This document shows positions 20,595-36,741 of a stretch of 64,000 nucleotides of DNA, one piece after another. The stretch comes from a virus, in the IMG/VR virus record IMGVR_UViG_3300027848_000009, positions 91,888 to 155,887 of that record, one strand, 5' to 3'. Position numbers and translations under genes: made by a program. How positions within the stretch are numbered: the first letter of the stretch is position 1; each line of letters begins with the position of its first letter. Below the pieces are notes generated by a model that was not told the DNA's origin, ran no database searches, and saw only the letters and a program-made list of their open reading frames with translations.

Positions 20595-21074
20595 ATGGCT
20601 CTAGATAGGTCTGGTGTTGAACTTCCGAGGAAGGGTTTCACATATCCCGATTTGGCTAACGCTTCAATCCTCGCCTCGTCGCTTGTGGGGCTTGGATTCG
20701 AGAATGCTACTGTCGCTTCAAACACTCTCAACACGACGGTGTGGTACGATGTCGGCAAGGCTCATGAAATTGTCGTAGACGGGGTCACCTCCACGGCAAC
20801 CAGTTCTTACACGGATATACCTATGGGTATTGTCATTACTGTCCGGGCAATCGGACCGTTTTTCCCGCCACATTTCCCGCCCCACTTCCCGCCGTTCTTC
20901 CCGCCCCACTTCCCGCCACATTTCCCGCCGTTCTTCCCGCCCCACTTCCCGCCACATTTCCCGCCGTTCTTCCCGCCCCACTTCCCGCCACATTTCCCGC
21001 CGTTCTTCCCGCCGTTCTTCCCGCCACATTTCCCGCCACATTTCCCGCCGTTCTTCCCGCCATCGTTTAAGTGA
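20595..21074 (+). CDS. Proline-rich FPPX-repeat tail protein
   Basis: 159 residues. Residues 1-89 form a small beta-rich domain (for example NTTVWYDVGKAHEIVVDG) like other fibre-associated proteins here. Residues 90-157 are 17 perfect tandem tetrapeptides FPP[H/F/S] in a higher-order H-H-F order, followed by Phe-Lys and the stop. 34 of these 68 residues are proline, so an extended polyproline-type helix is likely, with aromatic and histidine side chains at every fourth position. It sits 305 bp upstream of the first of six prolyl-hydroxylase-like genes. Position in the fibre cluster suggests a virion protein; the repeat is an obvious candidate substrate for these enzymes, though that is inference. 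Confidence 0.65.
   Translation: MALDRSGVELPRKGFTYPDLANASILASSLVGLGFENATVASNTLNTTVWYDVGKAHEIVVDGVTSTATSSYTDIPMGIVITVRAIGPFFPPHFPPHFPPFFPPHFPPHFPPFFPPHFPPHFPPFFPPHFPPHFPPFFPPFFPPHFPPHFPPFFPPSFK
20862..21065 (+). repeat. 17 x 12-bp tandem repeat encoding FPPX
   Basis: Units are TTCCCGCCACAT, TTCCCGCCCCAC and TTCCCGCCGTTC in a 36-bp higher-order order repeated four times, then an extra F unit and one more set, ending with a Ser unit. Every unit is a multiple of three, so length changes by slippage would keep the reading frame. Confidence 0.95.
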
Positions 21075-21080
21075 TTTCCG

Positions 21081-21356
21081 ATGATCAAGCGGTTCATAAG
21101 GTGGTATCTCAGGCCGATTGACCTAACTCGCGACGAACGAATCACCGGCGCTATTGGCTGGATGCTTCTGATAGTGGGCATTCTCGCCTACGACATTTTT
21201 GCTATTAGGACGCGGAAAATCGAAACGCTTTCTAGGTACTTTTGGCGATCCGCAGAGCGGACTGTATTTGGAAACACCCTGAGGTGCATCTGGGTCTGGC
21301 TAACATTTCATCTACTTTTTGAAACAAAAGTAAGAAAAACCCTGCACCGAAGATAA
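21081..21356 (+). CDS. Small membrane protein
   Basis: 91 residues with one clear membrane helix (GAIGWMLLIVGILAYDIFAI at about 24-43) and a second weaker one near 68-80 (CIWVWLTFHLLF), flanked by Arg/Lys-rich ends. It starts 6 bp after the FPPX gene, so it is probably co-transcribed. Function unknown. Confidence 0.6.
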   Translation: MIKRFIRWYLRPIDLTRDERITGAIGWMLLIVGILAYDIFAIRTRKIETLSRYFWRSAERTVFGNTLRCIWVWLTFHLLFETKVRKTLHRR

Positions 21357-21378
21357 CCGATCACGCTAATATACGGGC

Positions 21379-22011
21379 ATGGAAGAAACAGACGACGTCT
21401 CGTTGATCCACCCCGGACACTTTGGGGCATCAACAGACAACATCGTCCTCATCGAAGACTTTGTAGATGCAGATGATCTAATCACTCTCCAGAATTTTTT
21501 CCCCACTATCGACGAATGGGAGAATCCCCTTGAGGATGAGTTCAACGAAGACGGAACTTGCATTTACGACGCTTCATACTGGTGGGACAGGATGTGCAGC
21601 GGAGCAATCCTTCAAAGGACCGCACCAGAAATCCACGACCTGATCGACTTCTACATCAAGAAAATGAAGAACGTCCTCGATCAAAAGTTCAACGTCTCTC
21701 TGTACCAGCGACCGCCAGTGCTAATTAGATGGATGCCCGGAAACGAGCAGCAGCCACACGCCGACAAGCAACTCAATGATGGCACCCCGAACCCTTTCCC
21801 GTTGTACGACATCAACTCGATCATCTACTGGAACGACGATTTCAACGGCGGCGATTTCTACTATCCGGAATACGACATACATCTTCCAATCAAAGCCGGT
21901 ATGGCCGTCGCCCATCCGGGAGATATTCACTACCGGCATGGTGTGAAGCCAATCATTTCCGGCGAACGCTGGACAACACCTTCTTTTTACACGATCACGG
22001 AACTGAGATAA
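21379..22011 (+). CDS. 2OG-Fe(II) oxygenase, prolyl 4-hydroxylase-like (1)
   Basis: 210 residues. The double-stranded beta-helix core shows His127-x-Asp129 (PHADK), a NSIIYWNDDFNGGDFYYP strand-turn (the GG-[DE] motif of P4H-like enzymes), a distal His187 (YRHGV) and Arg197 for 2-oxoglutarate. All metal and cosubstrate ligands are therefore present. The family hydroxylates proline or other side chains using O2 and 2-oxoglutarate. It is the first gene of a plus-strand set (21379-27063) with 0-4 bp gaps, right after the fibre genes. Small-molecule or protein substrate is undetermined. Confidence 0.85.
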   Translation: MEETDDVSLIHPGHFGASTDNIVLIEDFVDADDLITLQNFFPTIDEWENPLEDEFNEDGTCIYDASYWWDRMCSGAILQRTAPEIHDLIDFYIKKMKNVLDQKFNVSLYQRPPVLIRWMPGNEQQPHADKQLNDGTPNPFPLYDINSIIYWNDDFNGGDFYYPEYDIHLPIKAGMAVAHPGDIHYRHGVKPIISGERWTTPSFYTITELR

Positions 22012-22014
22012 ATA

Positions 22015-22725
22015 ATGCGCATCGGCGGCTACCTAGGAAACCCCACTGATGGAATTCTTCTCTACAAGGACGTTTGGCCAAAGGAATCAAACTTTGTTGA
22101 ACGCTTAGAGCGTGGCCTTGAGCAAAGTTCGAGCGAATATTTTTCGTGGCAGCAGGCAACAGTCGGCGACTACGAAATAATGAAGGACTATCGAGACTGT
22201 TTTGATTTCAAACTTCGCCAAGCCGACATTCCTGTGTCCGACGAATTTGCCGACCTTGGTCGAGTCTATGAAGAGGTTATTGAGGGAGTGCGTGAATGCG
22301 TTCTCCACTACTCGTCTCTTTACAACCTGCAACTCGACTACGAGGAAGCAACAAACTTTGTGAAGTACGGAGTTGGGCAGCACTTCTCAATCCATCCAGA
22401 TTCTGGCTTTTCCTACTCGTGCGCCGTATCGTGCGTCGGATACATCAACGACGACTACGAAGGCGGTGAATATGTGATGCCGTTCAAGAACCTCAAGTTC
22501 ATCCCCGAGGCCGGAGATGTAATTGTCCACCCCAGCGACTTCATCTACGCACACGCATCTCAACCAGTCTCATCTGGAATCAAGTACTCAGCAGTGACGA
22601 TGTACGACTACAACGACCGCAATCACCAAGCCCATTCTTCCGCCAAGTCGCCGGAGCCCGCCGTGACAATAAACAGCATTCCCGTCGCAAGTAATCAAAC
22701 GTCAGCGTACAACCCCGGTCCGTAA
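22015..22725 (+). CDS. 2OG-Fe(II) oxygenase, prolyl 4-hydroxylase-like (2)
   Basis: 236 residues. His127-x-Asp129 (SIHPDSG), CVGYINDDYEGGEYVMP, distal His180 (YAHASQPV) and Lys190 in the cosubstrate position (Arg or Lys is usual). The N-terminal ~110 residues are helical and differ from paralogue 1. The last ~35 residues are Ser/Pro/Asn-rich and probably flexible. It starts 3 bp after the previous stop. Confidence 0.85.
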   Translation: MRIGGYLGNPTDGILLYKDVWPKESNFVERLERGLEQSSSEYFSWQQATVGDYEIMKDYRDCFDFKLRQADIPVSDEFADLGRVYEEVIEGVRECVLHYSSLYNLQLDYEEATNFVKYGVGQHFSIHPDSGFSYSCAVSCVGYINDDYEGGEYVMPFKNLKFIPEAGDVIVHPSDFIYAHASQPVSSGIKYSAVTMYDYNDRNHQAHSSAKSPEPAVTINSIPVASNQTSAYNPGP

Positions 22726-22728: not shown

Positions 22729-23451
22729 GTGAAAGTTTCGTTAACTAGAACACATCAGAATCCGCCCGAGATCCGTCAGGCTGCAGTACGACGCGACTGG
22801 ATGGACGACACTTACAAGAAGCACGCATACAAGTGTCTGCCACTCACCGAAGCAAACGTAAACGGTTGGGACATGATCCTCCAGCAGGACGTTGTCATCC
22901 AGTGGGATGGCGGATTGACCGTGCCGAGAGTGCTCAGCGGCGAGAAAATGACGTTTGAGACAAATGGACAAACCTACGAACGCAACATCGTCATGCCGAG
23001 CATCGTTGGGATTATGTCATTCACGGTTGGATGGTCTTTTTCCACTCCGCCCGGTACCGCCACGTGGATCAGTGGATCACCAAACTATTTCGTTGACGGA
23101 GCAGTTCCTCTCACTGCCCACATCCCATCCGACTGGTGGCCGGACGAGTTCAACATGAATTGGAAAATCACCAAGATTGGAGAGCCGGTCACATTCCCGG
23201 CTGGATCTCCTTTCATGTTTTTTCAGTTCTACGACACATCCTTGATGCCAAGCGTCGAGTTCGAAGTCGAGAACTACTGGGACAAGCCAGAACTTTCTGC
23301 CGCTCGCCAGTCGTATGGCGATGCGAAAATGAAGAAACTCGAAGAGCAGCCTTGGACATGGATGGGTGGCATCAGGACTGGCCTTGACGAAAACGGAAAT
23401 CAGGTCGGTCCACGATTCGACGGGCACGTTCATTTAAAGGAACCACAGTGA
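22729..23451 (+). CDS. DUF6065-like protein
   Basis: 240 residues from a GTG. The core KCLPLTEANVNGWDMILQQDVVIQWDGG at about 35-62 matches my recollection of the DUF6065 pattern (CLPL..AN..GW...W.GG). Its C-terminal half has NMNWKITKIGEPVTFPAGSPFMFFQFYD. Function of the family is unknown to me. A second, divergent relative lies at 35896-36741, so the island carries one at each end. It sits inside the oxygenase operon, with its stop overlapping the next start. Confidence 0.6.
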   Translation: MKVSLTRTHQNPPEIRQAAVRRDWMDDTYKKHAYKCLPLTEANVNGWDMILQQDVVIQWDGGLTVPRVLSGEKMTFETNGQTYERNIVMPSIVGIMSFTVGWSFSTPPGTATWISGSPNYFVDGAVPLTAHIPSDWWPDEFNMNWKITKIGEPVTFPAGSPFMFFQFYDTSLMPSVEFEVENYWDKPELSAARQSYGDAKMKKLEEQPWTWMGGIRTGLDENGNQVGPRFDGHVHLKEPQ

Positions 23452-25022
23452 GAAAATTTGGCGGGATTGCCTTAGGGCTTAAACTTGGAAACCTTGGCTT
23501 CAAGATCAAGGGAGTTACCCCTCAACAAGTGTTTGACGACCCCTCCTACTTCAGGGAGATTTTCAAACGCAACAAGGTGATCGGCTTTATAGGCATGCAT
23601 CCCACCGACATCGAACACATGCAGTTGGTGGACTGTATCTACAAAGGTGTCAGCGATCCAGACTTTCGCACAGGACTTCTTGCCGACCAGCGACATGAAA
23701 CAATTTCGGATGTCGAGGACAAATCCGATCCTGAAGGATTCCTGAAACGAAACTGGCATGTCGATAATCCATTCATGCCAGAGCCCCCATGCCTCCTCTC
23801 TATCCATATGACCACCTACAAAGTGGATCCAGACTATGGGCACACTTTTTTTGTCAGCCTCGCCAACCTGTATGACGAATGCCCCTCCCACCTGAAAGAG
23901 CATTTGAGTGACGCTCACTTCGTGTGCCAGACGGGAGCAATCGATCAGGATATCTCGACACACCCGGCCTTGCGCACCCACCCCGACACAGGGGAAACGA
24001 TGCTGTACTGGACAGGGCCCGGAACGGCTCTTGCCGGGGGCAACACTCCATGGTTTGAAGAACTGTACGGTTGGGTGACGAAATACTGCGCAAACGAAGC
24101 GAATCGCTTCAAATGGGTTTGGTCAGAAGGAGACGTGATCATCTGGGACAATCGGGCGGTCATGCACGGCTTCTACAATGGATGGGATCGGTCGGAACGC
24201 ATCTTCCAACGCGTCGAAGTTGGACATGAGCAACCTTTCTTTGACCCCGACCATGTCGGCAACTGCGATCCGGACTTCGGTGACACCAATGAATACAAGG
24301 GTGTCGATAAAGATAAATCGAAGGGACCCAATCCGGACCACATACCCCTCGTTTTCACGAAGGGCATCTACGCCCTCGAAGGCTTGGATCATCTTTTCCA
24401 GACAGTGACGCTCTTCGTGTTCTCGAAAGACGGTTCGATACCTGACAACGTTCGCGAGTTCAAAGAATTAATTGATGAGACTGACGACCTTTCCGACGAC
24501 TTCAACGTTGTCGGAGTTCCCATCGATGAGTCCAATCGATTGTTTGCAAACTTGATGAGGTACAGCAAACACCACAATCTAGAGGACCCGGTAGAAGGAC
24601 AGATGTTCCTTTTCTCTCGCAATGGAGACACACACGGTGGCTCAATGCCCGCCAGAGAAGATCTGATGAGGACAGCCCCATACGAGGGTGGGAAGTTGAC
24701 GCCGATCGAAACAGTTCGCGCATATCTCCGCTGGCACCCAGAAATGAGGCATGCTGGCCACGCTTGGCACTATCCGGATTGGTTCCCTCATCAGCCTCTC
24801 CAGTTCAGGCCTTGGGATTTCCAGAACCTTTTCTTCATGACGTACGAGGGTTTTAGTGGAAAAAATCCGCCAGAAGATTTTCTGGTACAGTTCGCCATTG
24901 ACACGATCTTCGGTTGCTTCAACCACCTAAGAGACAATGGCGAGCGCAGGCAGATCATCGAGCGAATCAACGATTACGTCTCATACATGCTGGAGTTGGA
25001 TGAACATGAGTTCGAGCGATAA
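23448..25022 (+). CDS. TauD/TfdA-family 2OG-Fe(II) dioxygenase with C-terminal extension
   Basis: 524 residues from a GTG that overlaps the upstream stop (GTGA). Residues about 20-260 match TauD-type enzymes: NWHVDNPF gives His104-x-Asp106, and DVIIWDNRAVMHGFYNGWDRSERIFQRVEV gives distal His240 with Arg255 for 2-oxoglutarate. TauD enzymes hydroxylate small molecules such as taurine, herbicides or amino-acid-derived substrates. Residues about 265-524 form an extra domain without a family I recognise, so the protein is about 200 residues longer than usual. It lies between the DUF6065-like gene and another oxygenase. Confidence 0.82.
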   Translation: MRKFGGIALGLKLGNLGFKIKGVTPQQVFDDPSYFREIFKRNKVIGFIGMHPTDIEHMQLVDCIYKGVSDPDFRTGLLADQRHETISDVEDKSDPEGFLKRNWHVDNPFMPEPPCLLSIHMTTYKVDPDYGHTFFVSLANLYDECPSHLKEHLSDAHFVCQTGAIDQDISTHPALRTHPDTGETMLYWTGPGTALAGGNTPWFEELYGWVTKYCANEANRFKWVWSEGDVIIWDNRAVMHGFYNGWDRSERIFQRVEVGHEQPFFDPDHVGNCDPDFGDTNEYKGVDKDKSKGPNPDHIPLVFTKGIYALEGLDHLFQTVTLFVFSKDGSIPDNVREFKELIDETDDLSDDFNVVGVPIDESNRLFANLMRYSKHHNLEDPVEGQMFLFSRNGDTHGGSMPAREDLMRTAPYEGGKLTPIETVRAYLRWHPEMRHAGHAWHYPDWFPHQPLQFRPWDFQNLFFMTYEGFSGKNPPEDFLVQFAIDTIFGCFNHLRDNGERRQIIERINDYVSYMLELDEHEFER

Positions 25023-25842
25023 ACAACTTCCCGTCGGCAAACACCTTGGTGGTGGAGTAGTCCTATTCGAACAAGTGTTCGATCTTGACTGGGATTGGAT
25101 GAGAACGTACTGCAAAGATGTTTTGCAGCGCGAGCGCGCCACCATGTACGAGCCGGGCATCGACCCGATTACTGGCGACGATGGATACATCAACAGAAGT
25201 GGATACTTCTTCAAGAAAGATTCTCTCGACGAGATGCCATGGCGCGGCAGTTTTGTTCATCAAGACAGCAGGTCCGACGTTATCGAAACCCTTGATTACA
25301 TCGAAGAACGAAGAGATGCATGCCTGTTGACGTATCTCGGAATGTTCCCAATTGCGGGAAAATGTATTTGGTGGAAAATCAAGAGCCACATCGTCGCCTA
25401 CCCGATTGGTGGATTCCTCGGGATGCACGCCGACATCAGTACCGATTATGAATACGGCAAACCTCACCCCCGTGACCAACTCGCGACAAGGAACACCGTC
25501 TCAGTTGTCGCGTACCTCAACGATTCAGTTAAATCTGCGGACGAGTTGGATGGAACCAACTTTACCGGAGGGGCGCACAACTTCACCTACCTCGACATCA
25601 ATCATGAGGATATAAAGAAGGGCGACATGCTCTTCTTCCCCTCGAACTACGTAGCGGCACATGAGGTACAGCCAGTAACTGGCGGTTGGCGCTACTCCTA
25701 CTTGGGGTGGTATTGTCAGGGAACACCGAATCCGGCGGTGTGTGAAAATGTAATGGACCCGAGCGACAACCCGGAACTCGCCAAAATCTCGACGAATGTG
25801 TACATGAAACATGGCTACTCACTCCTGCCCCCAGTCGGCTAG
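25000..25842 (+). CDS. 2OG-Fe(II) oxygenase, prolyl 4-hydroxylase-like (3)
   Basis: 280 residues from the ATG at 25000 (another ATG two codons later fits the GGAG almost as well). It overlaps the TauD gene by 23 bp. His143-x-Asp145 (GMHADIS), distal His221 (VAAHEVQPVTGG) and Arg231 are present. It contains a GDMLFFPSNYVAAHEV strand shared with paralogues 4 and 5. With those it forms a subgroup that has an N-terminal ~130-residue region containing GYINRSGYFF (GTYMNRGGYVF in 4) and a conserved WW pair (CIWWKIKSH, SVWWRADPH, SVWWRMRGH). Confidence 0.83.
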   Translation: MNMSSSDKQLPVGKHLGGGVVLFEQVFDLDWDWMRTYCKDVLQRERATMYEPGIDPITGDDGYINRSGYFFKKDSLDEMPWRGSFVHQDSRSDVIETLDYIEERRDACLLTYLGMFPIAGKCIWWKIKSHIVAYPIGGFLGMHADISTDYEYGKPHPRDQLATRNTVSVVAYLNDSVKSADELDGTNFTGGAHNFTYLDINHEDIKKGDMLFFPSNYVAAHEVQPVTGGWRYSYLGWYCQGTPNPAVCENVMDPSDNPELAKISTNVYMKHGYSLLPPVG

Positions 25843-26392
25843 AACAATCGGAATTGTCCACCCCGGCAGGATGGGTGGCACTTTGGCGTACGATCTCAAG
25901 AAAAGTGGCCACATCGTCTACTGGGCATCGTCAGGTCGCTCCGAAGCAACCGAAGAGCGAGCCAACGAGTTTGATCTTGTCGACCTCGTCGACGTCGACA
26001 CCGTCCTTGCCAAAAGCGAAATCGTGTTCTGCATTGCCTTTGGTGGAGCACCACTTGAAATCGCCAAGCACGTCGCCACAGTTGGCTACGACGGTATCTA
26101 CGTCGACGCCAATGGCCTGTGGGGCGAAGAGTCGGAGAAAGAGATTGCGTCCATCATCAACGATGCTGGGATCACCTACGTCGAAGCCGGTCTGTACGGT
26201 TGGCCACACCCGGGTCGCGAAGGATACACGGACGAGCACACCCTGTACCTGTCAGGAGAGAAGGCTGATGAAATTGCCAATCTTTTCTCATCGGGGTATT
26301 GGACTACCGAAGTACACCCGACGTCAGCAAAAGAAGTAAAACGCCTGAGGAACGATCGGGAACGAGGAACAGAGTTCCCCGAACAAGAGTAA
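25811..26392 (+). CDS. NAD(P)-binding beta-hydroxyacid dehydrogenase-like protein (half-length)
   Basis: 193 residues. TIGIVHPGRMGGTLAYDLKKSGHIVYWASSGRS is a Rossmann dinucleotide-binding opening, like 6-phosphogluconate or 3-hydroxyisobutyrate dehydrogenase (G-x-x-G-M/R-G). It also has VDANGLWG where such enzymes have a substrate-binding DxSG-type loop. The all-helical second domain is missing: the protein ends soon after SAKEVKRLRND, whereas family members have about 280-300 residues. It overlaps both neighbours. It may be a remnant, or may work with a partner. Activity is uncertain. Confidence 0.65.
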   Translation: MATHSCPQSARTIGIVHPGRMGGTLAYDLKKSGHIVYWASSGRSEATEERANEFDLVDLVDVDTVLAKSEIVFCIAFGGAPLEIAKHVATVGYDGIYVDANGLWGEESEKEIASIINDAGITYVEAGLYGWPHPGREGYTDEHTLYLSGEKADEIANLFSSGYWTTEVHPTSAKEVKRLRNDRERGTEFPEQE

Positions 26393-27063
26393 TGAAAGCA
26401 ACTCACTACGGATTTGGAATCGTCGAGTACGAGAACGTAGCCGACATCGATTCCGATTATCTGGAAGGCTGGCTAGAGAGGCGACGTCTTCAAGAACCTA
26501 ACGACTACACGCTTCAGAGCGACGGCACCTACATGAACAGGGGTGGGTACGTCTTCACGGAAGATCAAGTGAACGCTTCGCCCGGTCGTCTACTCCGGTT
26601 GAAGGTCAACTGCAGTGATGAAGATCTCGCCTTCGCAGAAAAACTCGAAAATGTCACCGCACTCTGCATTTCCGAATATTTTAATATCTTCCCAGAGGCG
26701 CAACGAAGTGTCTGGTGGAGGGCGGATCCCCATGTGGCAACCTACAAGCCCGGAGGATACATGGGGTACCACCACGACAATCTTGTTGGGGCTGGATCGG
26801 AAAGCGAAAAAGCGATCTACAGCGTCCTCACTGCATCTATAATCCTGAAAGATCAATGTAGCGGCGGAGATTTAGGGTTCAAATACATTGACAAGCATTT
26901 TGCGCCCAAGGCTGGAACTGCTTTTGTTTACCCTGCGGGTTTTCTAGGAACACACGAAGTGTGTCCGGTAACTTCCGGTGAACGTATTTCTTATTTGGAG
27001 TTCTTTGGGCACGGAACGCTGATGGGAGCCAACCCTTTCACTCCTCCTCGTACGGAATCCTAG
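26392..27063 (+). CDS. 2OG-Fe(II) oxygenase, prolyl 4-hydroxylase-like (4)
   Basis: 223 residues from the ATG overlapping the upstream TAA (TAATG). His127-x-Asp129 (GYHHDN), distal His188 (GTHEVCPVTSGE) and Arg198 are present. The N-terminus and the VWW motif are shared with paralogues 3 and 5. Its 3' end overlaps by 26 bp the convergent gene on the minus strand, so this operon ends here. Confidence 0.84.
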   Translation: MKATHYGFGIVEYENVADIDSDYLEGWLERRRLQEPNDYTLQSDGTYMNRGGYVFTEDQVNASPGRLLRLKVNCSDEDLAFAEKLENVTALCISEYFNIFPEAQRSVWWRADPHVATYKPGGYMGYHHDNLVGAGSESEKAIYSVLTASIILKDQCSGGDLGFKYIDKHFAPKAGTAFVYPAGFLGTHEVCPVTSGERISYLEFFGHGTLMGANPFTPPRTES

Positions 27064-28036
27064 TTCCGCTGGGGCCACCCTCTTTGGAGCGTTGCTGCGT
27101 CTCGATTGTAGAGGCGTGGAACCCGAGAGCGGAGTCTTTTGATGTATCGAGATGCGAGTGCCCCGACTTCGAGAACTTCACATGATCTTGGTAAAGGTAA
27201 GGGACGTAAACCGGAGCAAGCCACATGTCGCTTTCTTGCGGTTCTGAAACTTCGGCCATGTGCTCGCCGCCATGGCCAAACTGGGTGAGGTAGCTGTAGC
27301 GCGGCGTTTCGCCTGTAACCTGCGTCACCCCATGAGTGCCAACGTAGTTTGCTGGGAAGAGAATCATGTCCCCAGTCTTGGGTTTGATGGTGACATCCAA
27401 ATAGGGGAAGTGCATTTCCCCACCCTCGTAATCGTCGTTAAAGTAGGCTAACCCGTTGACGACTTGGTACATGGCAATCTCACGACCGCTGTAGTAACGC
27501 TGGCCATCAACAACGAACGTGTTCGTGTCATTATCGTTGTGTAGACCGAGGTTAGCCCCCGGCATGAATTTCAGGCAGTGCCCCCTCATTCGCCACCAAA
27601 CCGAGTTGACCATGAGCGGGTAGAGATCGCAATACCGGATCAAGGCGTGGTAGAACGATTCTTCGACGTGCTCGAAAAACGCCCTCACGTCGTGCCTCGT
27701 TTCCGGGCTGACCGGTTCAGGCATTCCGTGACCACCAACTCGCATTGGCAGGGCTAGAAGGTCTTTGATGTCAACGACTCTCCCGTCAAAAGTTTCGCCA
27801 CGGATCATGTTGCCTTCTTCGTCCCTGATGATCTCAAGGCCACATGATGGGACGTAAGCCAACTCGTCGATGTGGGGGAGCACGACGCTTTGGTCTATGT
27901 CGAACACGTTATGAAAGTGAATGACGCCACCGGTGTGATGGGTGTATTCGATCTCGTTTACGCGTTTGCAGTCATTTTCGTCAAGACTGTAATATGCGTA
28001 TTTGTTGCGATCCGGAGGGCCAAGTCGTGCGGGCAT
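27038..28036 (-). CDS. 2OG-Fe(II) oxygenase, prolyl 4-hydroxylase-like (5)
   Basis: 332 residues, the longest P4H-like protein here. His166-x-Asp168 (LHNDND), AYFNDDYEGGEMHFP, distal His235 (GTHGVTQVTGE) and Arg246. The C-terminal ~75 residues (after GHGGEHMAE) are an added polar tail. It is the last gene of the minus-strand operon 27038-30059. The upstream sequence holds a TAATATAG stretch 10 bp before the ATG, which could be part of a promoter. Confidence 0.83.
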   Translation of the reverse strand: MPARLGPPDRNKYAYYSLDENDCKRVNEIEYTHHTGGVIHFHNVFDIDQSVVLPHIDELAYVPSCGLEIIRDEEGNMIRGETFDGRVVDIKDLLALPMRVGGHGMPEPVSPETRHDVRAFFEHVEESFYHALIRYCDLYPLMVNSVWWRMRGHCLKFMPGANLGLHNDNDTNTFVVDGQRYYSGREIAMYQVVNGLAYFNDDYEGGEMHFPYLDVTIKPKTGDMILFPANYVGTHGVTQVTGETPRYSYLTQFGHGGEHMAEVSEPQESDMWLAPVYVPYLYQDHVKFSKSGHSHLDTSKDSALGFHASTIETQQRSKEGGPSGTRIPYEEE

Positions 28037-28046: not shown

Positions 28047-28820
28047 TTATCTTACTTTGTAAGCAATAGCAGTGCCGATTTCGTCGTGCGCTAAGTGAAA
28101 CACGTTGAAGTCGTCGCGCTGCAAAATTCTCCTGTTGATCCGGTGCATGTGATGTTCGTGCGCCTTTAGTCCGTCCTCGTAGAGCGACCCAAACTCGGCG
28201 AGGTCATAGATCATCATGATTCCGCCAACTTTGATGGAGTCAAGTAGACGATCTACGATGTTCAAGTTTGGGGTAAGGAAGTCATGGGTGTGCAGTCGAG
28301 CGGAGTCGAAATAGTTGACAACGTTTCCGTCTTCGAAATCCTGAAGGTCGATTACGTTGTATTTGCATTCTGAATGATTTGGAACGGTTCCATTTTCGTC
28401 AAGCGTTTCTTCCATAATTCTGGTTTCAAAAGTATTGATCCAGTAATAGTCCTTGGTACCTTCAGACATGGCGGGGAAGTGAGTGTTGACTGGAAAGGAT
28501 CCGGAAATTAGAATTTTTTCCGGCGTGGTCGGATCGACGGGTTTAAGGATGCCAAAAAGCGACTTGACGGCAATGTAGTTTCGCCACGCGTATTCGAGCC
28601 AAGTATTATCCTGCTCGCCAAGCCACGTAGAGTACTTCCAGAAGTACCAGTCGCGACCCATGGCCGCTTGTCGCTTGTCAGCGTTTGCTTCCGCGATTCC
28701 GGCATCAGCAAGTCTTGAGTAGTCGCGAACAAGGCTCAGTTCGTCATCCCATGTTGCGCCAGTCTGATTAGTGGAGAGGCTTCTAGCGACAATGCCTTTA
28801 TGGAAAATGCTGCTAGACAT
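28047..28820 (-). CDS. Methyltransferase-fold-like protein (paralogue of 35178-35876)
   Basis: 257 residues. The second half has the strand-helix order of class I methyltransferases: KILISGSF, KYNVIDLQDF, then NIVDRLLDSIKVGGIMMIYDL (typical post-motif-IV helix and strand) and a closing DEIGTAIAYKVR. The glycine-rich SAM loop (GxGxG) is not standard, so SAM binding is uncertain. The plus-strand protein at 35178 shares the same order of elements. The N-terminal ~110 residues are mostly helical with WYFWKYSTWLGEQDNTWLEYAW. Function unknown; neighbours are oxygenases. Confidence 0.5.
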   Translation of the reverse strand: MSSSIFHKGIVARSLSTNQTGATWDDELSLVRDYSRLADAGIAEANADKRQAAMGRDWYFWKYSTWLGEQDNTWLEYAWRNYIAVKSLFGILKPVDPTTPEKILISGSFPVNTHFPAMSEGTKDYYWINTFETRIMEETLDENGTVPNHSECKYNVIDLQDFEDGNVVNYFDSARLHTHDFLTPNLNIVDRLLDSIKVGGIMMIYDLAEFGSLYEDGLKAHEHHMHRINRRILQRDDFNVFHLAHDEIGTAIAYKVR

Positions 28821-29148
28821 TGTTCTCTACCTCGAACGACGAAATGTGACGACGACGCCAAAACCTGCGCGATAGCAGCATCATCCAACTTTTTTGTTTA
28901 CGTCCAAACGAGAATCCGGGATCGCAGGAACGTTGCTTGTCCCCGACCGGCAGGTAGGGCTCCATTGGATGTGGTTCGAACATCCACCCACATCGATCAA
29001 TCAGATCGTCGATTGTGTACGTGTTCATGTCTTCTTCGTTCAAACCAAGAATGTAGAAGCAGGACAACAGGTGCTTGGATGACCACCCCAATTCCGAGTG
29101 CGGGCTGTAAATCTTTCCAGATGTTGGGCTTACTTGCCTAATTGTCAT
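28813..29148 (-). CDS. Hypothetical protein in the minus-strand island operon
   Basis: 111 residues. The N-terminal half is hydrophobic/aromatic (SSKHLLSCFYILGL) and the C-terminal part is very basic (KQKSWMMLLSRRFWRRRH). No family recognised. It overlaps its downstream neighbour by 8 bp and its upstream neighbour by 1 bp, which supports translation as an operon. Confidence 0.55.
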   Translation of the reverse strand: MTIRQVSPTSGKIYSPHSELGWSSKHLLSCFYILGLNEEDMNTYTIDDLIDRCGWMFEPHPMEPYLPVGDKQRSCDPGFSFGRKQKSWMMLLSRRFWRRRHISSFEVENNV

Positions 29149-29823: not shown

Positions 29824-29825
29824 CT

Positions 29826-30059: not shown

Positions 30060-30091
30060 AATTTATCTCCAGAGACTGAGGTGACAACCAC

Positions 30092-30147: not shown

Positions 30148-30795
30148 ATGATTGATCTTGTTAAACCTTCACAAACGCTGATTGAAACATTGGTCGCCGA
30201 ACATCACCTCGGACCAACACCTGACGGAGAAAGCGTGTACGACATCCCCGTTGGATCGATCGATGGTTCCGTCTCCCGAATGCTCGAAAAGCGTAAAGAT
30301 AACGTCACAATGATGGTGAACGTCACCGGGGGGTGCGGCAACTCGATGCAGTACCCGATGCTGCAAGTTCTTGAGTACGACTACGCCGACTATGGATTCA
30401 AAATAATTTGCATCCCAACAAACGACTACTGCGAATACGGGTATGGCGACTTCAAGGACAACTCAACCAGCACAGCCCAAGAAGCACACGACTACGCCTA
30501 CTACAATTACAGGGTCAGGATGGACTTTACCGAACTCCTTATCTCCCGCCACAACCGGGAAGACGAAGATAGCAAAACCCCACACCGCCTCTACGCCAGA
30601 CTCGGAATTGACGAAGGTCCAATTAGAGGAAATTTTGAGAAGTGGATAGTCTCTAGAGACGGCAAGCGTCGCGCCCGGTTCACCAACGGCTCCCTCCTCC
30701 CTGCGAATTTTGAGAGCGGCAACGACAACTACGCACCGCAGGAAGCACTGCGACGCATCCGTGGAGCAATCGAATATTTCCTAACAGAGGACTAA
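30148..30795 (+). CDS. Glutathione-peroxidase-like thioredoxin-fold protein
   Basis: 215 residues. MMVNVTGGCGNSMQYPMLQVLEYDYADYGFKIICIPTNDY at about 55-94 follows the GPx pattern (VNV.s.CG.t.QY..L..L...Y...GF.V...P.N.F), with Cys63 at the peroxidatic position. The usual FGxQEP motif that supplies the catalytic glutamine is replaced by YCEYGYG, so peroxidase activity is doubtful. A LYARLGI segment sits where family members often have the second half of the fold. It begins the second plus-strand part of the island. It could protect oxygenases or reduce an oxidised substrate; this is inference. Confidence 0.6.
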   Translation: MIDLVKPSQTLIETLVAEHHLGPTPDGESVYDIPVGSIDGSVSRMLEKRKDNVTMMVNVTGGCGNSMQYPMLQVLEYDYADYGFKIICIPTNDYCEYGYGDFKDNSTSTAQEAHDYAYYNYRVRMDFTELLISRHNREDEDSKTPHRLYARLGIDEGPIRGNFEKWIVSRDGKRRARFTNGSLLPANFESGNDNYAPQEALRRIRGAIEYFLTED

Positions 30796-30833: not shown

Positions 30834-30974
30834 ATGGATCCGCAACCATTCAACGCAAACGATGTCATCGCTGATCTTGCAGAACAAGTGAAGCAACTGT
30901 CACTAAACAACACAATTCTGCGGGCGATGCTCAAGAAGACACAAGAGGAACCTGAAGCAAACCAAACAAACTAA
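30834..30974 (+). CDS. Small hypothetical protein
   Basis: 46 residues (begins MDPQPFNANDVIADLAEQVK) with one helix and a Lys/Glu/Gln/Asn tail. Its TAA overlaps the next ATG by one base (TAATG), which supports it being translated. No family recognised. Confidence 0.55.
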   Translation: MDPQPFNANDVIADLAEQVKQLSLNNTILRAMLKKTQEEPEANQTN

Positions 30975-31396
30975 TGGAACGCGTAATCTACTCTCCAAGC
31001 GAAGACGAACTGGAAGAAGCACAGTCGATTGCCGAATCCAATGGACTGCTCATCCAAGTCGGCGACTCCGAAGCGACGAAAAACATGGACTTCGATCGCT
31101 CGAAAGTCCAAATAATTAGCATCCCGAGCGTTCAGGAATTGCGCCTTTCCAACACCTTTTTCAAGTTGGGTCAGCTTTTGCGCGTCGAGTACATCGACGA
31201 GTTCGACAGCGTCAACGGACTGGAAATGCGCCTGAGACACGAAACGGGCCTAGTTGAGGATTCCAACGGGAAAGTTTCACCATGCGGTTCGATCATCGTT
31301 TTTCCCATCAGGCCAGCGAACAGTGGCAAATACGCTGGCGAAATTTTCGACAACGATGGCGTCATCGCTACATTCACATGCGAGGTGAGAGCGTGA
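30974..31396 (+). CDS. Hypothetical protein in the oxygenase island
   Basis: 140 residues with an acidic helical N-terminus and a beta-rich C-terminal half (CGSIIVFPIRPANSGKYAGEIFDNDGVIATFTCEV) that resembles an immunoglobulin-like strand pattern. Coupled to both neighbours by overlapping start/stop codons. No family recognised. Confidence 0.6.
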   Translation: MERVIYSPSEDELEEAQSIAESNGLLIQVGDSEATKNMDFDRSKVQIISIPSVQELRLSNTFFKLGQLLRVEYIDEFDSVNGLEMRLRHETGLVEDSNGKVSPCGSIIVFPIRPANSGKYAGEIFDNDGVIATFTCEVRA

Positions 31397-31956
31397 AGTC
31401 CGACCACATCAACGTAAGTCACATTGACGTCGACTTTTCCAATTTCATAGAGGCTTTAGAAAACTGGTCAAAAATGCCAGACATCCCGATTGACTGGAAG
31501 AAGGCCAAGGTTGGCAATGGGGACGTGAGTGACGGGAGATCCAATAGCGTCATCGATCTTATGCCAGTCCTTGAAAATGAAACCTTTTCAGGACATCCCG
31601 TATCTGTCGAGTTCAAACGTTTACATGTACTGATAGACGAAATTGTTACCGAATACAAGGAACGATTCGGCATCCCTCTCCGCTTCGACAACGGATGGGC
31701 AGTAAATCGATACGAAATTAGTCAGGAATACGTCCCCCACTATGACTGGGCACCACTCGAAGACAGGGTGGTCAGCGTCGTCGTGATGGCTAATACCCCC
31801 ACTTCCGGCGGAGAACTAATTTTCCCCGACCACGATCTCACGGTACCTGCAGCAGCAGGCACGGTCGTCGTTTTCCCGTCGTCCTTTCCTTACAGGCATG
31901 CATCAATGCCTGTGAAAGAAGGAACGAAATACTCGATTGTTTCTTGGTTGGGTTAA
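31393..31956 (+). CDS. 2OG-Fe(II) oxygenase, prolyl 4-hydroxylase-like (6)
   Basis: 187 residues from the GTG at 31393, which overlaps the upstream TGA. His116-x-Asp118 (PHYDWA), TPTSGGELIFP, distal His169 (PYRHASMPV) and Lys179 are present, so a complete active site. It is smaller than the other copies. The next gene has the same length and a matching C-terminal layout but lacks these residues. Confidence 0.84.
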   Translation: MKSDHINVSHIDVDFSNFIEALENWSKMPDIPIDWKKAKVGNGDVSDGRSNSVIDLMPVLENETFSGHPVSVEFKRLHVLIDEIVTEYKERFGIPLRFDNGWAVNRYEISQEYVPHYDWAPLEDRVVSVVVMANTPTSGGELIFPDHDLTVPAAAGTVVVFPSSFPYRHASMPVKEGTKYSIVSWLG

Positions 31957-31958
31957 TC

Positions 31959-32522
31959 ATGTTTCCAAAAATCTACGAAGACTACATTTACGTCTACGAA
32001 AAATCCGTTGTCATTGAAGAAGGCATGGAGGACGTGATCAGGAGGGGGACTGCCTCGGATTGGTCTTTCGTGAGTTTTACGACAGTCGTGCCGGAATCAG
32101 CCGATGTCGCGCTCTCGGAGATCGCCTCTCTCAATCCACTATCGACCCAAGTCGACGACGTTTTCCTAAATTACTTGAGAGAGAAAATTACTTCAATAGA
32201 TTTTATTTCATTAGAAAATTTCCAAGATTACTGTCTATCCCATGACATTTCTGCTAAACAATTTTCTTCTTACGACATGATTAGAATTTCTTCTACAAGC
32301 AACAATGGGTTCTCTGCAATTGTAGGAGGACTGCTGCAAGACGGAATTATATCCGAGGTTGTATCTATCTCTCCGAATGATACAAAACTTGACTTTCCCC
32401 ACCTCGGAATAGAAGTACCCATTTCGCAGGGTGACACAGTTTTTATTCCGGGCGGATTCCCATACTCTTTCCGATGTTTAGCAAACCCATCCAATATCTT
32501 CCTAAAACGTTCTTGTCGGTAA
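31959..32522 (+). CDS. Oxygenase-like pseudoenzyme lacking metal ligands
   Basis: 187 residues from the ATG at 31959, the same length as the upstream oxygenase. The C-terminal layout can be aligned with paralogues 2 and 6 through GLLQDGIISEVVS, LGIEVPISQGDTVFIPGGFPYSF, where the others read DLTVPAAAGTVVVFPSSFPYRH. The HxD motif is replaced by Ser-Asn-Asn and the distal His by Phe-Arg. It therefore cannot bind Fe(II) in the usual way. Since the frame is intact and flanked by active-looking paralogues, it may be a structural partner or substrate binder rather than a decayed gene. Confidence 0.6.
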   Translation: MFPKIYEDYIYVYEKSVVIEEGMEDVIRRGTASDWSFVSFTTVVPESADVALSEIASLNPLSTQVDDVFLNYLREKITSIDFISLENFQDYCLSHDISAKQFSSYDMIRISSTSNNGFSAIVGGLLQDGIISEVVSISPNDTKLDFPHLGIEVPISQGDTVFIPGGFPYSFRCLANPSNIFLKRSCR

Positions 32523-32525: not shown

Positions 32526-34010
32526 TTGGGAGTTTCAAAAATCGTCATAGTCGGATCTGGCACTGCCGGACTTGTTAACGCCCTCGTTCTTAAAAAAGTG
32601 TTGAGCAAGTTAGATGTCACCGTCGTTTCATCTGAATCAATCGGCATTATTGGTGTAGGTGAAGGAAGCACCGAGCACTGGACAACATTCGAAAAATTGA
32701 CAAATATTGATCGATCTGAGATGGTACGAGAAACCGGAGCCACCTTCAAATTTGGAATTAGATTTCTCGACTGGACAACACACACACCCGACTACTTCCA
32801 TAGCATCAGTGGCGGACAGGCCACACAGGCGACCTTCAACGGAACCTACAACTGGGCGGTCGCTCAAGAAAAGCAGTTGACTCCAACATTCGGAACACCG
32901 TCGATCATCCACAATCTGGTCAGAGAAACCGAAGAAAACATATTAGACCAAACAAACCAGTTTCATTTCGATACGTTTCTCCTGAACAAATATCTGAAAA
33001 GCAAGTGTTCAGATGCTGGTGTCAACTTCATTGAGGGAACAGTCGTAGGGATTCGCCGCGATCCAATCACTGGAGACGTTTCAGGGATACATCTTGAGGA
33101 CCGCGAAGATGTGATCGAAGCAGACTTCGTCGTTGACGCTTCAGGTTTCCGTCGTGAGGTCATTTCCAGACTAGGGGATGCAAGGTGGGAGTCATTCGAG
33201 GATTACCTCCCTACCGACAGCGCTGTCGTTTTCCAAACACCAGAAGACACCGTCAACGGCATAAAGCCTTACACGTTGGCAACCGCGATGAGTTCTGGCT
33301 GGATGTGGGAAATTCCAACTATCAGTCGCCGCGGCAATGGTTACGTTTTCTCTTCATCACATATCTCTGACGAGGATGCAGTAGATGAGGCGTCGAGAGT
33401 GAGTGGCTTCGATGTTCCAGATACCGCTCGTATCATTAGGTACAATTCTGGATACCTGAAAGAAACATGGAAGCACAACTGCGTCGCTGTCGGTCTTTCT
33501 TCCAACTTTATTGAGCCGCTTGAAGCAACATCAATTTCCGCCTCCATAAATCAGGCGATACTTTTGACGAGTTACATTCCTGCGTACTCCCCCGATGCAA
33601 GCATTATCAGGTCTGAATATTGCCGCATTTTTGATTCCATGATGGAAAACTTATTGACAATGATTTCGCTTCACTATGTTTCCAATAGGGACGATACAAG
33701 CATGTGGGCGGATCAGAAACATCGGCCACTACCGCCCACCCTTTCCACGATTATCGAGATTATGAAGTATCGCGGTCTGGAAGAACACGACATACCAGAC
33801 TGCGGATTTGATCTATTTAGATCCTTCCATTTTTGGCACGTTGCTCAGGGGCAGGGTTTGATTTCGAAAGATGTCTGCGCCAGCAATATCTCGATGCGTG
33901 GCACCAATGACCTACTCGAACGCAGCGTTTCAGATAGCATTTCCGGAAGCCGACACGGCAAATTGATCGGACACAAAGAAGCACTCATGAAAGGTTGCAG
34001 TCGTGGCTAA
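32526..34010 (+). CDS. Flavin-dependent tryptophan halogenase homologue
   Basis: 494 residues from a TTG four bases after the previous stop. It has the FAD-binding GSGTAG near residue 10, the halogenase signature W-x-W-x-I-P at 259-264 (GWMWEIP), a Lys at position 75 (GATFKFGIRF) matching the catalytic lysine, and Glu333 in EPLEATSI matching the catalytic glutamate of PrnA-type enzymes. Full length for the family. These enzymes use FADH2, O2 and chloride or bromide to halogenate tryptophan or indole compounds. No flavin reductase is visible, so host reductase would be needed. Substrate may be a peptide, free Trp or another aromatic. Confidence 0.85.
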   Translation: MGVSKIVIVGSGTAGLVNALVLKKVLSKLDVTVVSSESIGIIGVGEGSTEHWTTFEKLTNIDRSEMVRETGATFKFGIRFLDWTTHTPDYFHSISGGQATQATFNGTYNWAVAQEKQLTPTFGTPSIIHNLVRETEENILDQTNQFHFDTFLLNKYLKSKCSDAGVNFIEGTVVGIRRDPITGDVSGIHLEDREDVIEADFVVDASGFRREVISRLGDARWESFEDYLPTDSAVVFQTPEDTVNGIKPYTLATAMSSGWMWEIPTISRRGNGYVFSSSHISDEDAVDEASRVSGFDVPDTARIIRYNSGYLKETWKHNCVAVGLSSNFIEPLEATSISASINQAILLTSYIPAYSPDASIIRSEYCRIFDSMMENLLTMISLHYVSNRDDTSMWADQKHRPLPPTLSTIIEIMKYRGLEEHDIPDCGFDLFRSFHFWHVAQGQGLISKDVCASNISMRGTNDLLERSVSDSISGSRHGKLIGHKEALMKGCSRG

Positions 34011-34713
34011 GAATCCAAGTTTTCACTTTCCGACCGGAAAGATTGGTCAAATCATGTATGGGGATAACTTGATCCCAAAACGAATATGTGAAGGATTGAT
34101 AGATGAAAGCAGTCGCTACTTCGACAGGCTTTTCAAGCCCGGGATAACTATTAGTGGATCGAACCCCCTTGTCAAGTCGTCAAGTGACTTCAACTTTTCT
34201 AAAAAGATGATTGATGAGGTCGGTGTCGACTCAAGCAATTTTGCATTTTACGAGAACGAAGTTTCAGTTGGTTTGTACTCGGCTATCGCCCACTACATTC
34301 AAGAATATGAAGAATTGTGGAATTGGCCGGGCGTTCAGGATACGGGCTACCGGATGCAAAGATACTTCCGCAATCACGGTTACTACAGGGCCCACGTCGA
34401 CGGCAATCCATGGGAGTCCATATCGGGTGGCGAGAAACCACGAGTACTAGGCGTGATCATCTACCTCAATGATGTCGAAGTTGGTGGAAGTACATATTTC
34501 CCCAGCCATGACGTTCATGTCCCAGCAAAAGCAGGTCGAATCAGTGTTTTCCCAACGAATTGGACCCACCCCCACATGGGGCAGGTACCGATTACTTCAG
34601 ATAAGTGGATAATCAGTACTTTTATGACCGCCGACATTTACGATCGGACACCAGCACAAGAGCCCGAAACGTACGCCAAGGATAACGAATCCTCCGAAAC
34701 AGATGGCTCGTGA
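34003..34713 (+). CDS. 2OG-Fe(II) oxygenase, prolyl 4-hydroxylase-like (7)
   Basis: 236 residues from a GTG that overlaps the halogenase gene by 8 bp, so the two are translationally linked. His131-x-Asp133 (AHVDGN), VIIYLNDVEVGGSTYFP, distal His191 (THPHMGQVPIT; His189 is a possible alternative) and Lys201. It has the most classical P4H-type sequence of the set. An acidic Glu/Ser/Asp tail ends the protein. In the count of intact P4H-like enzymes in this window, this is the sixth with the standard small fold plus extensions (the numbering here includes paralogue 5 on the minus strand, so seven entries in total). Confidence 0.86.
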   Translation: MAKNPSFHFPTGKIGQIMYGDNLIPKRICEGLIDESSRYFDRLFKPGITISGSNPLVKSSSDFNFSKKMIDEVGVDSSNFAFYENEVSVGLYSAIAHYIQEYEELWNWPGVQDTGYRMQRYFRNHGYYRAHVDGNPWESISGGEKPRVLGVIIYLNDVEVGGSTYFPSHDVHVPAKAGRISVFPTNWTHPHMGQVPITSDKWIISTFMTADIYDRTPAQEPETYAKDNESSETDGS

Positions 34714-34716
34714 TGG

Positions 34717-34745: not shown

Positions 34746-34892
34746 ATGGCTGAACCAGAGGAAGACTACGTCCCAGAAGGGTGGGACCCCGAACTTCAGA
34801 GATTTGTTCGTGACGACGGAGCAGCCGATCCCGTTGTCACCTGTTTCGTTTTTGAAAACAACCCGATTTACGAGAATGAGGAATCAGAATAA
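34746..34892 (+). CDS. Small acidic hypothetical protein
   Basis: 48 residues (MAEPEEDYVPEGWDPELQRF...), acidic. GGAGG lies 5 bp before the ATG, and the TAA overlaps the next ATG (TAATG). No family recognised. Confidence 0.6.
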   Translation: MAEPEEDYVPEGWDPELQRFVRDDGAADPVVTCFVFENNPIYENEESE

Positions 34893-35176
34893 TGGGAAAG
34901 TACGACATCGATGACGATTATGGCTTTCGCATCACACAGATCGCTCGACTCATCTCACTTTGCGGTGAAGACGAGACGCGGGCCACAGAAATTACCGTCG
35001 ACGAACTGACGGGCCTGCTGGCCGGGCACTACTACCCAAACGCGAGCCCGACGTCGCCTATGAACACAAACGCCGAGAAGGTGTTGTATCGAGTTTTCTA
35101 CAGAACAAAAGAGCAAGCAAGAACGAACTGCTATTACCGCGACATTCTGAAAGCAAGGATGTTTGGAGATGTCTAA
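34892..35176 (+). CDS. Small hypothetical protein
   Basis: 94 residues, mostly helical, with FRITQIARLISLCGEDE and ELTGLLAGHYYPNAS. It shows a similar layout to the minus-strand protein at 28813-29148 (KHLLSCFYILGLNEEDMNTYTIDDLIDRCGW), and each precedes a methyltransferase-like paralogue, so the pair may have been duplicated together. No family recognised. Confidence 0.55.
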   Translation: MGKYDIDDDYGFRITQIARLISLCGEDETRATEITVDELTGLLAGHYYPNASPTSPMNTNAEKVLYRVFYRTKEQARTNCYYRDILKARMFGDV

Positions 35177-35177
35177 C

Positions 35178-35876
35178 ATGACCCCAATCCAACTCTATTC
35201 GGTGACCGAGGCGCTTTCGAATCCCAGCCACCACACCACAGACACAATCGAAAACCGCAAGGCTTTTGGACAAGCGGTCAAAAAAGAAGAAATCCAGCTT
35301 GGCGCCCAGCAAGACAGGAACTCCACTGGATGGTCCACCGAGATCGCGCATTACGAGATGCTCTCACTGGGGTCGTTCAACTTCAACGTCATCCTCTCTG
35401 GGTATCTCACCGCCCTAGAGGGAATTATCAGGTCAGCGAACCCCAGTAAACTCTTTTGTAGCGGTGGCGCATCTCTGCGTGTCGTCAGTCAGGGCGATTT
35501 TGGAGCGGAACTTTTCGTTGAAAACTCCATCCACCTCGACTACATCGAGCGGCACATCGGCATTCCTGATGACGTCACTTATAATATAATTACGCATACA
35601 GATGTCGAGTCCGGAACATTCCCGGCTCAACTCGACTGCGCCATCCTAGATACTGTGACGGCATCAAGAAATATTCATATTCTTGACTCGTTGATTAACA
35701 ACATTCCTTCAGGGAAGACGATAATCCTGACAGTCTCTCTGGATCAAGGCTTTCTGGCCCAATACGGGGATAATCATGACTTCTGGCCAATGTTCAGAGA
35801 CCTCGCTAGTCGTGATGACATCCGAGTCCACCACATCCCCCTATCGCTTGGTCTAACTATCATCACAAAACGTTGA
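35178..35876 (+). CDS. Methyltransferase-fold-like protein (paralogue of 28047-28820)
   Basis: 232 residues from the ATG at 35178 (GGAG nine bases upstream; in-frame ATG/TTG codons further upstream are poorer). Same order of elements as the minus-strand paralogue: KLFCSGGAS, TYNIITHTDV, NIHILDSLINNIPSGKTIILTVSL, then DDIRVHHIPLSLGLTIITKR. The glycine-rich SAM loop is again unclear. Function unknown. Confidence 0.5.
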   Translation: MTPIQLYSVTEALSNPSHHTTDTIENRKAFGQAVKKEEIQLGAQQDRNSTGWSTEIAHYEMLSLGSFNFNVILSGYLTALEGIIRSANPSKLFCSGGASLRVVSQGDFGAELFVENSIHLDYIERHIGIPDDVTYNIITHTDVESGTFPAQLDCAILDTVTASRNIHILDSLINNIPSGKTIILTVSLDQGFLAQYGDNHDFWPMFRDLASRDDIRVHHIPLSLGLTIITKR

Positions 35877-35895
35877 AATAGTGTAGGCTGCAGCA

Positions 35896-36741
35896 ATGGC
35901 CGACCTGAACAGCGATAAAATTATTACCGCTCGATTTCTGGGCGATATTCCAGAGGTGAAGCCGGGCCAAATTCTGGTTGCACCGTCTAGTAATAGGATG
36001 TACGACGAGAGAATTCATCCAGTCGATAACTTTCTTAACTTCCCTCAGTGGTTCAAAGATCTGGATTCCGAGCAGCAAACGCTCAAGAGGTGTCAAGGTA
36101 CTCAAGACTATTTGACGACCGGAATGACGTTGCGCCTACCCAGTGATGTGAAAATTCGACTAGACGCTGTCGGCCAAGGCTGGGAATCCAGATATGAAGT
36201 CGCCGAAAACATTCCTCATCTGGGTGTCGAGAGCTTCTCTTACGATCAGACAGGTCCGATTCCAGCCACTGAAGGCAGGAAGATCAAGCGCGCCAACTGG
36301 ATCAAACTCCTAAACCCTTGGGAAGTAAAGACCGCACCCGGTTGGTCGTCAATGATTCTTCCCGTTCTGTGGGAGCAAAGCCGAGACTGGTCGCTAGTTC
36401 CCGGAGTGGTTCATACCGATTTCTACCATCACATGAATTGGGTCCTCAACATCTATACGGATGCGGAAGAATTAGTTATCCCAATGGGAACTCCGGTCGC
36501 ACATGTCATCACGTTTCCTCGAACAGTCAAGAGCGAGGTCGTTTATGGAGACGAAGGTGTCCATAATCTCATTTACTCCAGAGGTATGGGAAGCGTGTTC
36601 GGTGGCCACGTTGATAGCAGGGATAGAAAATACAGGATCCACCAGAGGAAGGTTGATTCCGGGTGTCCAATATTTCACGGAACCCCAGAAAAGAAGAGAG
36701 GCCGGTGGAGTAGGATTTTCCGCTCCATTTGGCGCCACTAA
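35896..36741 (+). CDS. DUF6065-like protein, divergent
   Basis: 281 residues. Middle segment KLLNPWEVKTAPGWSSMILPVLWEQ followed by WVLNIYTDAEELVIPMGTPVAHVITFPRT is a pattern I associate with phage DUF6065-like proteins (NPW...T.PG.S...P, then GTP.....PF.R). Residues 1-50 add a leading region. Function unknown. It closes the island before tail genes resume. Confidence 0.5.
   Translation: MADLNSDKIITARFLGDIPEVKPGQILVAPSSNRMYDERIHPVDNFLNFPQWFKDLDSEQQTLKRCQGTQDYLTTGMTLRLPSDVKIRLDAVGQGWESRYEVAENIPHLGVESFSYDQTGPIPATEGRKIKRANWIKLLNPWEVKTAPGWSSMILPVLWEQSRDWSLVPGVVHTDFYHHMNWVLNIYTDAEELVIPMGTPVAHVITFPRTVKSEVVYGDEGVHNLIYSRGMGSVFGGHVDSRDRKYRIHQRKVDSGCPIFHGTPEKKRGRWSRIFRSIWRH

Follow-up and report, generated by a model that had tools for sequence, protein, structure and literature searches.

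A candidate phage system for hydroxylating an aromatic-proline repeat tail protein, encoded beside its proposed substrate

The 64,000-nucleotide stretch analysed here (the window) comprises the final 64 kb of an uncultured virus record of 155.9 kb, IMG/VR IMGVR_UViG_3300027848_000009. Between its tail genes and a second fibre cluster lies an island of genes for prolyl 4-hydroxylase-like enzymes (P4Hs, oxygenases dependent on Fe(II) and 2-oxoglutarate (2OG)) and for DUF6065 proteins, preceded by a gene for an aromatic-proline repeat (APR) protein with FPPX units. Our explanation, to which we assign a probability of roughly 0.72, is that the phage uses these genes to hydroxylate a proline-rich tail protein of its own. 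That the APR protein is the likely substrate is inferred from the gene content, its linkage and conservation, the catalytic residues and a predicted fold. Virus-encoded prolyl hydroxylation is already known; the present reading would extend it to tailed phages, where both the repeat substrate and the partner family would be new. We know of no tailed phage in which hydroxylation of its own tail proteins has been described.

Association of repeat, hydroxylase and DUF6065 genes

A preliminary description of this stretch had proposed that the phage modifies its own fibres, and had held that a genome survey showing the oxygenase genes mainly without proline-rich repeat genes would speak against this. 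We ran such a survey in both directions, and the two kinds of gene were found together in each. Starting from the repeats, we searched IMG/VR with a DNA pattern encoding FPP[FYHL] units, which matched at least 119 stretches, and compared 50 FPPX-selected contigs, each of at least 24 kb, with 26 contigs caught by a random 15-mer. PF13640, the Pfam family of the island P4Hs, is present in 45 of the 50, usually in 5-10 copies, as against one copy in 1 of the 26 controls (Fisher 4e-14). DUF6065 was found in 39 of 41 FPPX contigs, nearly all of which had been picked for having P4Hs, and in none of the 26 random contigs.

From the enzyme side, 36 contigs were seeded by a P4H motif, ignoring repeats. 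Strict FPPX repeats occur in 16 of these (0 of 8 random contigs), and among 17 of the remaining 20 that were read, 14 encode an APR protein with variant repeats near the P4Hs, giving an APR protein in at least 30 of the 36. Of the other three, one has a repeat interrupted by apparent frameshifts, another is truncated by the contig edge, and the third has three scattered P4Hs and no APR protein. Used as sole marker, the strict pattern FPPxFPPxFPP missed half of the P4H-seeded contigs because the repeats vary (FFPPFFPFF, FFAPPGFFAPPG, FFSPPFFPP and FFAPPG, for example), and it was replaced by a composition rule. This rule gave no match in 59 random viral stretches (482 kb), which hold no P4H open reading frame (ORF) either, and the pairing is therefore not a matter of chance.

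The genes are also closely linked and ordered. A P4H starts within 2 kb downstream in 57 of the 72 APR ORFs having that much sequence, with 50 on the same strand and a median gap of 142 bp. Across 24 contigs of at least 45 kb, 56 of the 90 listed P4Hs lie no more than 10 kb from an APR gene, compared with 24 expected (0 of 5000 permutations); because this control is internal to each contig, the sampling environment does not explain the linkage. Around 53 APR genes, 48 loci contain the P4H family, 46 contain DUF6065 and 41 a tail-fibre family, followed by a short phage-type ORF in 21 and every other family in at most 12. The downstream P4Hs share a median pairwise identity of 31% and hence do not stem from one recent lineage. 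The core module runs from the fibre gene through the APR gene to P4H and DUF6065 genes, usually on one strand, and orders such as P-D-P-D-P-P-P-P (P, P4H; D, DUF6065) recur among the loci.

The repeat protein and its predicted modifying enzymes

In the window, the FPPX protein consists of a small PASTA-like N-domain followed by exactly 17 FPP units, the number given in the preliminary description. Read in frame, FPPX matches elsewhere are tails at the C-terminus, either of long fibre-like proteins or of proteins whose N-domain is Fn3 or PASTA-like. Some of these tails then carry Peptidase_S74 or Hint-like domains, and the APR protein of locus L057 bears Peptidase_S74, a fibre-tip chaperone. 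An intein-like or Hint domain appears to follow many APR tails (L306, L307, L312, L314, L318, L319 and L321, and the FPPX loci L023, L068, L089 and L093), with sub-threshold Hint/intein-like Pfam matches in L314 and L321. The Hint-like domains suggest self-processing or attachment of the C-terminal part of the APR protein.

Comparison of adjacent FPP units in 55 arrays gives differences at 42% of third codon positions against 0.25% of first and second positions, a ratio that is inflated because array picking favours FPP units. The third-position difference alone indicates that the arrays are not recent DNA duplications, and the codon pattern suggests that it is the encoded amino acids of the repeat that are maintained. 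Repeat flavour was scored at 0.85 within contigs encoding two APR proteins and 0.68 between contigs, a comparison of only 7 pairs that was not used. A cellular origin of FPPX was considered and rejected: in a genome collection of 84,980 species the pattern gave 19 matches, with a real protein only in L325 and L331/L336. These three contigs from GTDB metagenome-assembled genomes (MAGs) encode FPPX/PASTA proteins, adjoined by a P4H in L325 and L331, and resemble viral contigs that were binned into MAGs of Verrucomicrobiales and Gammaproteobacteria.

A second candidate substrate is the fibre downstream of the island, in which Asn-Pro-Gly triplets had been noted. The tract does exist as a short Gly-Asn-Pro-Gly repeat, which places proline before glycine, the position used by collagen P4Hs; its match to Pfam Collagen (PF01391) is below threshold (18.2 bits against a cut-off of 27.2). 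The same fibre has many His/Asn-Pro repeats (HNPATTNHHH) besides this tract, and it is conserved in relatives.

Profile search assigned seven island genes to PF13640 (P4H1 to P4H7 in Table 1), and translations and alignment show that the HxD motif, the distal His and the Arg/Lys are kept in all seven, as had been described. Six pass the Pfam cut-off; P4H1 falls below it (19.8 vs 27 bits) and matches two PHROGs common to other P4Hs at 1e-11 to 1e-12. Outside the window, PF13640 also matches a gene at G000:46349-46618. In a 37-row alignment of P4H2 orthologues, H127, D129, H180 and K190 are invariant, and the first match of the P4H2 profile is the B. anthracis P4H. The structural model of P4H2 (pLDDT 87.6) lies closest to Chlamydomonas P4H with (Ser-Pro)5 (3gze), P. 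putida P4H with EF-Tu (4iw3), 2jig, the PBCV-1 enzyme vCPH (5c5t) and PHD2. As modelled, its double-stranded beta-helix fold is nearest to that of peptidyl prolyl hydroxylases, enzymes that act on prolines in proteins. Adjoining the intact P4H6 is a degenerate paralogue, possibly a pseudo-enzyme partner. It has homologues in two close relatives of the window (G001 and G002), and a third (G004) carries a diverged ORF at that position.

For DUF6065, on which we found no paper, a dUTPase-like fold is predicted (pLDDT 91); the match is at the level of fold, a Pfam search giving no dUTPase family. DUF6065 directly follows a P4H in most APR loci. Two such proteins had been reported in the island: the one at 22729 is a clear family member (1.3e-42), whereas that at 35896 has no Pfam match yet clusters with DUF6065 proteins.

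We propose that a protein-maturation module sits inside the tail operon. The phage would make the APR protein together with the prolyl-hydroxylase-like enzymes and DUF6065, and in the infected cell the enzymes would hydroxylate the repeat prolines before the protein enters the virion; the Gly-Asn-Pro-Gly tract of the downstream fibre may be hydroxylated too. DUF6065 would work with the hydroxylases, most likely as a partner or scaffold, and hydroxylation would probably confer solubility, stiffness or adhesiveness on the strongly hydrophobic Phe/Pro tail. In the subclade of the window, the halogenase, the TauD-like oxygenase, the GPx-like protein and the degenerate P4H could serve as accessory tailoring genes. 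More speculatively, and with considerable doubt on our part, this could be a tailed-phage counterpart of collagen and extensin maturation, widespread in uncultured aquatic phages, in which each P4H paralogue has its own position or residue, DUF6065 is a dedicated subunit, the aromatic-proline repeat is the tail of a virion adhesin, and the halogenase of some clades modifies Phe, His or Trp rings of the same repeats.

The island in the window and its relatives

The tail sheath of the window is 37% identical to those of actinobacterial myophages of Gordonia and Brevibacterium, and its matches total 89 records, mostly Arthrobacter phages; the sheath thus points to hosts among the actinobacteria. 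The features of the island and its flanks are listed in Table 1.

Table 1. Features of the island and flanking genes (positions in the window)
Feature	Position	Strand	Remarks
Tail-fibre-like gene, directly 5' of FPPX gene	18048..20588	+	homologues near APR gene in 41/53 loci
FPPX (APR) protein, 159 aa, proposed hydroxylation substrate	20595..21074	+	17 FPP units
Array of 17 FPP[H/F/S] units, 12-nt period	20862..21065	+	
Small putative membrane protein, weakly DUF7427-like	21081..21356	+	kept in relatives
P4H1, 2OG-Fe(II) oxygenase	21379..22011	+	orthologues in many APR loci
P4H2, 2OG-Fe(II) oxygenase, paired with DUF6065	22015..22725	+	modelled fold nearest to prolyl 4-hydroxylases
DUF6065 protein, core partner, predicted dUTPase-like fold	22729..23451	+	DUF6065 match 1.3e-42
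TauD-like 2OG oxygenase, C-terminal half without assigned function	23448..25022	+	TauD 4.7e-24
P4H3	25000..25842	+	88-89% identity in relatives
Rossmann-type NAD(P)-binding protein	25811..26392	+	profile match
P4H4	26392..27063	+	PF13640
P4H5	27038..28036	-	PF13640
Protein without family match	28047..28820	-	methyltransferase fold not confirmed
Small conserved protein	28813..29148	-	kept in relatives
GPx/thioredoxin-fold-like protein	30148..30795	+	5.9e-9
Conserved protein	30974..31396	+	present in relatives
P4H6	31393..31956	+	nearest solved sequence B. anthracis P4H, 2.9e-5
Degenerate P4H paralogue without HxD and distal His	31944..32522	+	
Flavin-dependent halogenase (Trp-halogenase family), clade-specific accessory	32526..34010	+	PF04820 2.2e-101
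P4H7	34003..34713	+	PF13640
Small conserved protein	34892..35176	+	kept in relatives
Protein without family match	35163..35876	+	methyltransferase fold not confirmed
Distant DUF6065-like protein (phrog_7084)	35896..36741	+	
Fibre with Gly-Asn-Pro-Gly collagen-like tract and His/Asn-Pro-rich repeats, second candidate substrate	37843..39399	+	kept in relatives

Profile matches bear out the TauD-like oxygenase, the tryptophan-halogenase homologue and the GPx-like protein named in the preliminary description. The halogenase translation contains IVGSGTAG, ATFKFGIRF, WMWEIP and EPLEATS, in agreement with the FAD-binding motif, the WxWxIP motif and the catalytic Lys and Glu of the family, and its solved relatives are Trp halogenases, PrnA, RebH and phage VirX1. 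It was rejected as a core part of the module, being present in only 2 of the 50 FPPX contigs. The proposal of fibre modification is supported in its central idea, hydroxylases acting on a proline-rich tail protein of the phage, but halogenation as part of the same system is not, nor is methylation: the two proteins taken for methyltransferases (28047 and 35163) match no methyltransferase family in Pfam, PHROGs or NCBIfam. Nor is the density of P4Hs unusual, as had been suggested, 5-8 copies being typical in this phage group. The halogenase, TauD-like, Rossmann and GPx-like genes belong to the accessory genes of the clade that includes the window.

Relatives of the halogenase occur in five IMG/VR contigs (48-67% identity). 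The island is in the same order in four of these, the fifth (L017) being a short piece with only part of it. The relatives G001-G004 each have an FPPX protein at the corresponding position, and behind it come the small membrane gene, P4H1, P4H2 and DUF6065; these FPPX proteins, three of them distinct, have 26-34 FPP units. P4H1, P4H2, DUF6065, TauD and P4H3 are 83-91% identical to their counterparts in G001 and G002, and the fibre 5' of the FPPX gene 53-68%; with synonymous sites mostly saturated (dS), this amounts to strong protein conservation rather than a dN/dS estimate.

Two further observations concern neighbouring sequence. Between the island halves, about 1 kb (29148-30100) has no ORF above 80 aa and apparently several small minus-strand ORFs. 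At 39710-41497, a putative signal peptide and a very long, mucin-like Thr/Pro linker precede a peptidoglycan-binding, endolysin-like gene at 41729.

Alternative explanations and known systems

Several points weigh against hydroxylation of the APR protein. Linkage alone does not prove a substrate, and we found no observation of hydroxyproline or another modified residue in these proteins in the literature. Our search likewise found nothing on phage tail-protein hydroxylation or an APR/P4H link, most subscription journals lying outside its coverage. Chlorovirus virions contain a P4H, but a study of PBCV-1 detected no hydroxyproline in the proteins of its virion (PMC7019647). None of the cultured phages in the searched collection has an Fn3-APR protein, and 5 of the 50 FPPX contigs, fragments of 28-39 kb, have no P4H. 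The survey controls were not matched by environment, and the enzyme-side survey, its seed motif having been taken from the window's enzymes, samples mainly P4H2-type genes rather than all phage P4Hs. Finally, in the regions of HTVC008M and S-SSM7 that were read, P4Hs occur with no APR gene, so that phage P4Hs may have more than one role, and a different product has been proposed for a comparable cyanophage cluster, as discussed below.

If the oxygenases modified a host protein such as a translation factor, or sensed oxygen, the linkage would reflect co-inheritance within the tail operon. The second-best fold match, P. putida P4H bound to EF-Tu, would fit this, as would the cyano- and pelagiphage regions in which viral P4Hs occur with no APR gene. 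Such a role would, however, not account for the presence of 2-10 paralogues in each locus, for their placement immediately behind the repeat gene, for the repeat gene found in nearly all P4H-seeded contigs or for the recurrence of the pair with different N-domains, and we consider it unlikely. We also find it improbable that the island makes or decorates a small molecule, a peptide or a surface polysaccharide, as Iyer et al. 2021 (PMC7824862) proposed for the cyanophage S-SSM6a cluster with its halogenase, 2OG oxygenases and methylase. The window does have halogenase, TauD, Rossmann and GPx-like genes, but the conserved core is APR, P4H and DUF6065 only, without a carbamoyltransferase, nonribosomal peptide or polyketide synthase (NRPS/PKS) or sugar gene; the halogenase is as rare as stated above, and P4H2 is P4H-like rather than of the small-molecule 2OG type.

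Hypervariable cargo regions are known in cyanomyoviruses (PMC2984593), and the TauD, halogenase and Rossmann genes differ between clades, as would be expected if the tail-fibre region simply gathered unrelated auxiliary genes. Against this very improbable explanation stand the frequencies of P4H (48/53 loci) and DUF6065 (46/53), where most other cargo families reach at most 12, together with the recurring gene orders, the within-contig permutation result and the conservation of the proteins at saturated dS. We give almost no credence to nucleotide or DNA modification, in which DUF6065 and the oxygenases would act on modified bases. The DUF6065 model matches dUTPases and some 2OG oxygenases do act on DNA; however, the island oxygenases match prolyl hydroxylases, with a marginal Tet_JBP similarity (E 0.034) in one of them, the genes lie in the tail operon and not with replication genes, and DUF6065 lacks a dUTPase family match.

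Among known systems, the nearest solved enzymes, by sequence (2.9e-5 single, 8e-7 profile) or fold, are B. anthracis P4H (3itq, 5hv0) and Chlamydomonas P4H-1 (2jig, 3gze). These are cellular enzymes with collagen-like or Ser-Pro substrates and are not known to form linked paralogue sets. The chlorovirus PBCV-1 encodes vCPH (5c5t), a P4H that matches in sequence and fold and hydroxylates proline-containing peptides in vitro; it differs in being a single enzyme of a eukaryotic algal virus, for which neither DUF6065 nor linked FPP repeats have been described. The phage halogenase VirX1 (6qgm) belongs to the same family as that of the window and halogenates free small molecules; it is not known as part of an APR/P4H module. 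Pelagiphage HTVC008M has several 2OG oxygenases within about 7 kb, but no APR repeats in the region read; at 48775-80115 (L342), five 2OG oxygenases and a halogenase stand among head and tail genes. The S-SSM6a-type cyanophage cluster (PMC7824862) shares a halogenase and several 2OG oxygenases with the island; it differs in having carbamoyltransferase and phosphatase genes and is predicted to produce a metabolite, whereas profile searches of the island proteins gave no carbamoyltransferase and no sugar- or amino-acid-building families.

P4H ranks with the most frequent enzyme genes of aquatic viruses. In the Baltic Sea water column, viral P4HA is among the most abundant "auxiliary metabolic genes", and its use was called "cryptic" (PMC9301287). 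These genes probably overlap with enzymes of the window's type, and that study identified no substrate, operon or partner. The present survey gives viral P4Hs a specific candidate substrate, the adjoining Phe-Pro-Pro repeat protein, and a near-universal partner, DUF6065, with enzyme and proposed substrate encoded by small, adjacent genes. Should hydroxylation of the APR protein be borne out, the purpose of a widespread and so far enigmatic group of viral genes would be accounted for. A large class of viral genes would then be misnamed as "auxiliary metabolic genes", since their enzymes would target the virion rather than host metabolism.

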